A stretch of 64,000 nt of DNA from contig NZ_CP014855.1 in the NCBI RefSeq assembly GCF_002214385.1, positions 1-64,000 of the forward strand, given 5' to 3'. Positions 4,971-42,097 of the stretch are shown piece after piece. The notes beneath the pieces were generated by a model, which worked only from the letters and a program-made list of their open reading frames with translations, was not told where the DNA came from and did no database searches. A program made the translations under genes and the position numbers. The stretch's first letter is position 1. Each line of letters starts with the position of its first letter. The stretch comes from Thermococcus gorgonarius (lineage in GTDB: Archaea; Methanobacteriota_B; Thermococci; Thermococcales; Thermococcaceae).

Positions 4971-4991
4971 CTCCCACGGGAAGCAATTAAC

Positions 4992-5047
4992 GCGATGATG
5001 AGTGATGGGCGAACCGACTGGTGAGGAAGGAAAGGTGATCGCTGAGC
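4992..5047 (+). ncRNA. C/D box guide sRNA (first of tandem pair)
   Basis: Box C is ATGATGA at 4995-5001 and box D is CTGA at 5042-5045, exactly 40 bases apart, the same spacing as in the second RNA 90 bases downstream. A degenerate D' (CCGA, 5014-5017) follows a 12-base guide at 5002-5013, and GTGAGGA at 5021-5027 can serve as C'. The 12-base guide pairs, with one G-U and one end mismatch, to UUCGCCCAUUAA, which I recall as the archaeal 23S A-loop; the fifth-base rule would place 2'-O-methylation at the C equivalent to E. coli C2558. The D-box guide is unassigned. The terminal stem is weak and the internal boxes imperfect, hence only moderate confidence. Confidence 0.6.
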
Positions 5048-5060: not shown

Positions 5061-5081
5061 CCTCTCTTTTTGAATCCTCTT

Positions 5082-5139
5082 GGGATGATGACTTCAGCCT
5101 TGCCTGAGGCTCGTGATGATGGAGTGACGGACTGACCCC
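5082..5139 (+). ncRNA. C/D box guide sRNA (second of tandem pair)
   Basis: All four boxes are canonical: C ATGATGA 5085-5091, D' CTGA 5104-5107, C' GTGATGA 5113-5119, D CTGA 5132-5135. Both guides are exactly 12 bases, the archaeal optimum, and a GGG/CCC terminal stem closes the RNA at 5082-5084 and 5136-5138. The D' guide (5092-5103) is complementary over 11 bases to the 16S segment GCAAGGCUGAA, and the D guide (5120-5131) to CCGUCACUCCA, both recalled from archaeal 16S. Counting five bases from the boxes predicts methylation at the equivalents of E. coli G902 (helix 27) and U1406 (helix 44, decoding site). The RNA would work with L7Ae, Nop5 and fibrillarin, none of which is encoded in this window. 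Confidence 0.9.
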
Positions 5140-41573: not shown

Positions 41574-41990
41574 TCACAGCGACACCAAAATCGCCCCGAT
41601 GACTATCAGGAGCGCCCCAAGCGCTGTTTTTAGATCCATCTTACTCCCGAGGACGAGCCACGATAGGAATATCGCGAGGGCAACGCTAGTTTTGTCTATT
41701 GCGATAACCGAGGGGACCCTTCCGTTCTTTATGGCCATGAAGTAGAACAGCCACGAGAGCGCCCCGGCAAGCCCGGAGAGGGTTATCAGGAGGAGAGCCC
41801 TGCCGTTGATCTCACCGACCTTAGTGGAGCCGCTGAGGAGGGCAACTCCCACCAGAAAGACCGCCATTATAACTGCCCTCACCGCGGTCGCTAGGGTTGG
41901 ATTGACGTCCTTGAGGCCGAGCTTTCCGAATATCGGGACGAGCGATGCGAAGAAAGCGGCCAGAACTGCGTAGATTATATATTCCCTCAT
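41574..41990 (-). CDS. Single-domain EamA/DMT transporter
   Basis: The 138-residue protein has five membrane helices and matches one EamA domain: AVLAAFFASLVPIFGKLGLKD at the start, SGLAGALSWLFYFMAIKNG and VALAIFLSWLVLGSKM, with ALGALLIVIGAILVSL at the end. Most drug/metabolite transporters have two EamA halves, so this half-size protein should work as a dimer. Substrate is unknown. ATG 41990 has AGGTGA five bases ahead; GTG 41999 is the alternative. A GC-rich structured element fills the short leader (42004-42066), and GCCTTTTAGG at about 42083-42091 on this strand is a plausible TATA box. Confidence 0.83.
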   Translation of the reverse strand: MREYIIYAVLAAFFASLVPIFGKLGLKDVNPTLATAVRAVIMAVFLVGVALLSGSTKVGEINGRALLLITLSGLAGALSWLFYFMAIKNGRVPSVIAIDKTSVALAIFLSWLVLGSKMDLKTALGALLIVIGAILVSL

Positions 41991-42003
41991 TTCAGTCACC
42001 TAA

Positions 42004-42066
42004 AGGGGGTAATAACCCGCCCAAGTTCATCGGCTCCGCCTTCGGCGGCACTCCCCGGGCGGAGGA
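42004..42066. other. GC-rich structured RNA element, strand uncertain
   Basis: Written on the plus strand, GGGGG at 42005-42009 can pair with CTCCCC (42051-42056), CCGCCC (42017-42022) with GGGCGG (42057-42062), and CCGCC-TTC-GGCGG (42036-42048) forms a tight inner hairpin. The two outer pairings interlock as a pseudoknot. On the minus strand it would be the leader of the EamA gene with a promoter at about 42087; on the plus strand an ATTATATA box at about 41972-41979 would start an RNA near 42004. It could be a riboswitch-like leader or a small GC-rich RNA of the kind found by composition screens in Pyrococcus. Confidence 0.5.
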
Positions 42067-42097
42067 GGTTGATAATTTCTTCCTAAAAGGCTTCCGG

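Follow-up and report, generated by a model that had tools for sequence, protein, structure and literature searches.

The GC-rich element studied here lies within the first 64,000 nucleotides of contig NZ_CP014855.1 of Thermococcus gorgonarius (this whole stretch is what we call the window). It is probably an autonomous small-RNA gene with its own promoter, the ortholog of P. abyssi sRk11, and its transcript would form a hairpin with a kink-turn, be bound by L7Ae and act in trans. The RNA itself is already known (sRk11, described in one species in 2011); new here are the kink-turn and an H/ACA-like geometry without a guide pocket. The RNA is about 57 nt long, with its first base at 42060, and reads leftward on the minus strand to about 42003. 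We have numbered it so that RNA position n corresponds to window position 42061-n, and positions 1-56 are its conserved core. A sequence-only reading of the same DNA had offered, as one of its options, a small RNA starting near 42004 on the plus strand from a ATTATATA box. The small RNA stands in kind, but not with that start or strand, and the box falls within EamA codons. The features on which the analysis rests are the following:

42003-42060, minus strand: small RNA gene, orthologous to sRk11 of P. abyssi, located by searching 94 family genomes with DNA and with a covariance model
42084-42096, minus strand: BRE/TATA-like promoter, CGGAAGC (42090-42096) plus TTTTA (42084-42088), RNA positions -36 to -24, from 92 aligned loci
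42019-42060, minus strand: main hairpin, pairs 1-4/39-42, 5-37, 6-36, 10-29, 12-28 and 13-17/21-25; covariation at 12-28, 15-23 and 17-21, with 5-37 always paired
42051-42053, minus strand: kink-turn, 5' strand, G8 A9 G10; the same in all 43 distinct sequences, with two bases missing here in the divergent copy of genome G072
42026-42032, minus strand: kink-turn, 3' strand, C29, the three-nucleotide bulge N30 A31 U32, G33 A34 and A35; C29, A31, U32, G33 and A34 in 43 of 43 distinct sequences, A35 in 42 of 43
42007-42018, minus strand: 3' hairpin GGGU-UAUU-ACCC (positions 43-54), which competes with the proposed pseudoknot for the C run; paired in 95.3% of cells, two-sided changes absent
42002-42004, minus strand: U run, probable 3' end; 63 of 92 loci have a T run of at least 3 that begins within RNA positions 55-59
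41574-41990, minus strand: EamA half-size transporter (Pfam PF00892, 82.7 bits), beginning 13 nt past the last modelled base of the RNA

The copy in genome G004, taken to be P. abyssi GE5 (in agreement with the coordinate match to sRk11), occupies 197427-197484 on the minus strand, with 197484 as its first base. Phok et al. (2011, PMC3124441) placed the 5' start of sRk11 at 197484, minus strand, by primer extension, saw an RNA of about 50 nt by Northern blot and noted a TATA box upstream. Since first base and strand coincide with the published ones, the element is sRk11; position, start, strand and TATA are the same for both, and we found no feature that separates them. According to the same study, sRk11 is conserved in all seven thermococcal genomes compared and is similarly expressed across growth phases; the available text classes it among the RNAs with a probable conserved function and names none. 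Sharing its origin in that work are two other conserved small RNAs of Thermococcales, sRk28 (preQ1-like) and sscA (sRk33). We rejected an identity with sRk28, whose P. abyssi locus has other coordinates (527798), and sscA differs likewise (locus 636804; PMC3124441, available text). Our literature search returned no further paper using the name sRk11 for an archaeal RNA (judged from titles), nor any assigning a role to this RNA. To what is known of sRk11, the present analysis adds the kink-turn, covarying pairs, a wider distribution and changing neighbours.

Distribution, promoter and neighbouring genes

A covariance model detected the RNA in 92 of 94 Thermococcaceae genomes, one copy each, and in none of 21 genomes that belong to the same class but to other families. 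The two family genomes without a match, G035 and G053, are 69% and 53% complete, respectively. The window's own copy scores 90.9 bits, against 11 bits for the next match there. With a 161-nt DNA query, strong matches were obtained in 91 of the 94 family genomes (best E of 9.4e-14 or lower, over about the same 56 nt), and there was no strong match in G035, G053 and G072. The alignment set comprises 92 loci from 91 genomes (G091 contributes two), aligned on the first base, with 43 distinct sequences among them. The second copy in G091, a genome of another genus than the window's (locus L092), is partial and lies on a contig containing N (C143), its upstream sequence being identical to that of L032, from genome G047 of the window's genus; judging by this sequence, the contig is probably a Thermococcus-like contaminant. 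No plasmid or viral copies of the RNA were found, the viral contigs having been searched with a sequence pattern.

Across the family genomes, conservation is confined to a block of 56-58 nt with sharp borders. In the 92 loci, positions 1-55 are mostly more than 90% identical (the exceptions are 11, 12, 20, 28, 30 and 38), and most flanking positions only 30-60%. Outside the block, what is conserved is a T-rich box from -28 to -24, the A-rich stretch preceding it, a few positions from -17 to -9 and a pyrimidine at -1: T occupies -27 in 93% of the loci, A occupies -32 in 82% and a pyrimidine occupies -1 in 92%. Sharp borders and the spacing of the T-rich box thus indicate an archaeal promoter layout, with position 1 as the transcription start. 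A textbook TATA box is not universal, the strict TTWWWWA motif being present in only 21 of the 92 loci.

The sequence-only reading had also described the element as filling the leader of the EamA gene, and had suggested a ligand-sensing leader of this transporter. The first description holds in the genome of the window and in eight others, where the start of EamA lies a few bases past the RNA and leaves no space for a second promoter, but it fails in the remaining genomes. Of the 92 loci, 8 have EamA immediately downstream; adding the divergent G072 copy gives 9 of 92 genomes. At E<=1e-15, an EamA match exists in 37 of 94 genomes, in 9 of them beside the RNA and in 28 elsewhere (among these 28 is G035, in which no RNA was found); 56 further genomes have the RNA and no EamA match at this threshold. 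Downstream genes are otherwise diverse and often on the opposite strand. Because the RNA does not stay with EamA (together in 9 of the 37 EamA genomes), a role as an EamA leader is refuted as a general one, and a riboswitch-like element acting in cis on the transporter is a very unlikely reading. An element missing where the transporter gene is kept was also the outcome that the sequence-only reading itself had named as fatal to its proposal. This removes a false lead. In the nine genomes with EamA directly behind, the transporter gene probably relies on read-through from the promoter of the RNA, so that there the RNA would incidentally double as a leader, because of where it lies.

Within the window's genus, a gene of 448 residues with a cobW-type nucleotide-binding domain (present in 87 of 94 genomes) often precedes the RNA, and a PLDc_N protein sometimes lies between the two. 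In other genera the RNA is located elsewhere, often near a putative aminotransferase gene. An RNA that stays almost unchanged in sequence, in a single copy and throughout the family, while its neighbours change, very likely has a role that matters to these organisms. The Thermococcales include a genetic model species, T. kodakarensis.

Hairpin structure and covariation

All three pairings named by the sequence-only reading are present (plus-strand coordinates): GGGGG 42005-42009 with CTCCCC 42051-42056, CCGCCC 42017-42022 with GGGCGG 42057-42062, and CCGCC 42036-42040 with GGCGG 42044-42048. The bases of the first two are nearly invariant across copies, except that the outer two of CCGCCC/GGGCGG sit upstream of the first base of the RNA and are not conserved. 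That the RNA is structured, as had been proposed, is borne out by its presence in 92 of 94 family genomes together with covariation. Compensatory changes across genomes, however, are found for the nested hairpin and not for the pseudoknot that had been drawn from the first two pairings.

The strongest covarying column pair is 12-28, with G-C in 40 loci, A-U in 51 and no other combination in the 91 loci without N; 15-23 and then 17-21 follow (43 distinct sequences). By parsimony, on a 30-genome tree of the 448-residue gene in which several nodes are weakly supported, 12-28 has switched at least four times. The nested structure with pair 5-37 has 98.6% of cells paired among the 43 distinct sequences and beats all 500 shuffles both on paired cells and on covariation score, in controls that ignore kinship; sliding it out of register lowers the paired cells to 26-56%. 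Pair 5-37 is G.U in 31 sequences, A-U in 6 and G-C in 6, with no mismatch, and the alternative 5-38 would give three A.C mismatches. With 5-37 preferred over 5-38, G7.A35 comes to adjoin the G.A pairs of the kink-turn. The same pair sets the strand: the G.U found in 31 of 43 distinct sequences would become A.C on the plus strand, which places the RNA on the minus strand.

As to other folds, RNAalifold picks 10-28 and 11-27 instead, pairs that leave the coupling of 12 and 28 unexplained. At 80 C, the nearest-neighbour model favours a fold in which 13-17 pairs with 40-44; we rejected it, as this pairing is disrupted in the sequences with U15-A23, where C42 remains C. Folding energy is ordinary, with 43, 43, 48 and 21 of 200 dinucleotide shuffles equalling it in the four stretches tried. 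The element is therefore judged real on its conservation and covariation, the folding energy being at chance level for such a GC-rich sequence. The transcript would consist of a stem of about nine stacked pairs with one bulged base, capped by the kink-turn, with a short capped stem above the kink and then a small 3' hairpin.

An H-type pseudoknot, with 1-4/39-42 interlocked with 5-8/52-55, would use part of the same bases. The pairs 5-8/52-55 form in 94.2% of cells, with a two-sided change at 5-55 in one sequence, among bases that hardly vary. Against it, every sequence has G5 and G6 paired within the main stem (5-37 and 6-36), 5-55 is mismatched in 5 of 43 sequences and 6-54 in 4, and the C bases that the pseudoknot would need also close the 3' hairpin. 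As 5-37 pairs constantly, the main stem is favoured over the pseudoknot for G5, and we consider the pseudoknot unlikely.

A short peptide gene, or a mimic for the ribosome, is hardly credible. An AUG is present at 31-33 in every 56-mer, preceded by GGAG in nearly all, and most of the frames start MNLGGLLP or MNSGGLLP. However, frame length varies from 9 to at least 30 codons, two loci (L067 and L081) are frameshifted, the common change at position 38 alters the amino acid, and three bases are a short spacing between GGAG and AUG.

Kink-turn, L7Ae and guide RNAs

The kink-turn is presumably of the Kt-7 type, given its likeness to Kt-7 of the large ribosomal subunit. Its hallmark is present by sequence: G7.A35, G8.A34 and A9.G33, with presumed sheared geometry, are followed by G10-C29 and the bulge N30 A31 U32. 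This corresponds to the definition of the motif as tandem sheared G.A pairs next to a three-nucleotide bulge that follows a C-G pair (PMC4245976, available text). In the helix beyond the bulge, 10-29 and 12-28 are paired in all sequences, and Y11 and A26-G27 are unpaired; these interrupt the helix, so that only one regular pair flanks the bulge. A single divergent copy departs from the hallmark of tandem G.A pairs and three-nucleotide bulge, that of G072 (locus L112, 1989-2042; genome 99% complete), detected by the covariance model at 52.6 bits. Two bases are missing from it at each of 8-9 and 26-27; it retains the promoter, the 3' part and EamA behind it, and is either a copy in decay or a variant that has no kink.

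Given the covarying hairpin and the invariant hallmarks of the kink-turn, L7Ae binding is to be expected, and the sequence predicts that the RNA likely binds this protein at the kink. L7Ae on the kink would then yield a stable ribonucleoprotein acting in trans. Phok et al. assayed L7Ae on sRkB, sRkC and sRk52, and the available text does not mention sRk11 among the kink-turn RNAs (PMC3124441). More tentatively, the RNA may be the core of a lineage-wide L7Ae particle, similar to the upper half of a pseudouridine guide without the guide pocket; such an undescribed housekeeping ribonucleoprotein would possibly act on the modification or translation machinery.

One could argue that the RNA is itself a pseudouridine guide of the H/ACA-like kind, that is, a kink-turn hairpin without a lower stem. 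The approximately nine stacked pairs and the bulge below the G.A pairs do resemble the 10-layer GA stem of H/ACA and H/ACA-like RNAs (PMC4652768, available text). In the available text of the same paper, the H/ACA-like RNAs of Pyrobaculum (sR204 group) and the P. abyssi candidates PabO1 and PabO78 are likewise kink-turn hairpins without a lower stem, and PabO1 and PabO78 share with the present RNA a strong promoter and conservation. As far as that text describes them, the present RNA differs from these H/ACA-like RNAs in having no 5' guide arm, no ANA box and a different 3' part. No Rfam family scored above its cut-off at the element (window, L072, L023, L112 and L085), consistent with the earlier statement that it matches no riboswitch class that could be named. 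The best match at a loose threshold was to PyrR204, an H/ACA-type RNA, and was non-significant (15.8 bits, E 1.9; the cut-off is 71). Rfam models are known for only some of the Hgc RNAs. Elsewhere in the window, Rfam identifies two box C/D RNA genes on the plus strand, sR1 and sR60, at 4991-5047 and 5081-5137, respectively.

Such guides carry an arm on either side of the stem. The present RNA does not: its stem begins at position 1, which leaves no 5' arm. Looking 14-15 nt after the GA stem, we detected no conserved ANA box in positions 43-58, a segment that can itself form a hairpin and beyond which the sequence is not conserved. Exact antisense complementarity to the rRNA operon extends over at most 10 nt, a length reached by 66 of 200 shuffled sequences. 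Lacking a 5' arm and an ANA box, and with an rRNA match at chance level, the RNA is by these tests not a guide of a known kind, and we regard the guide reading as improbable.

Junctions with tnpB and a recurring motif

In four of the 92 loci (L036, L039, L050 and L090), the RNA lacks its 3' tail from about position 53 on, and the end of a tnpB gene, antisense and running toward the RNA, stands in place of that tail. The L090 protein carries the Pfam domains Cas12f1-like_TNB and OrfB_IS605, and this tnpB is of the IS200/IS605 type. Of the 94 genomes, 4 have this exact tnpB-RNA junction; the 18-nt end sequence, searched with zero mismatch, was found nowhere else in the set. Guide RNAs of the tnpB family run out of that end of the gene; if this is so here, the predicted guide is antisense to the conserved RNA. 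It would then be directed at the RNA gene itself, much as though the conserved RNA served as a site for homing.

One motif recurs: TATTATACCCTCCGGGAGGAGGG, or a sequence close to it, lies downstream of the RNA in L009, L013, L015, L016, L018, L020, L037, L047 and L056, and also at the distal end of the tnpB genes in L036, L039, L050 and L090. It is often found just ahead of an ATG, as a palindrome fused to a ribosome-binding site.
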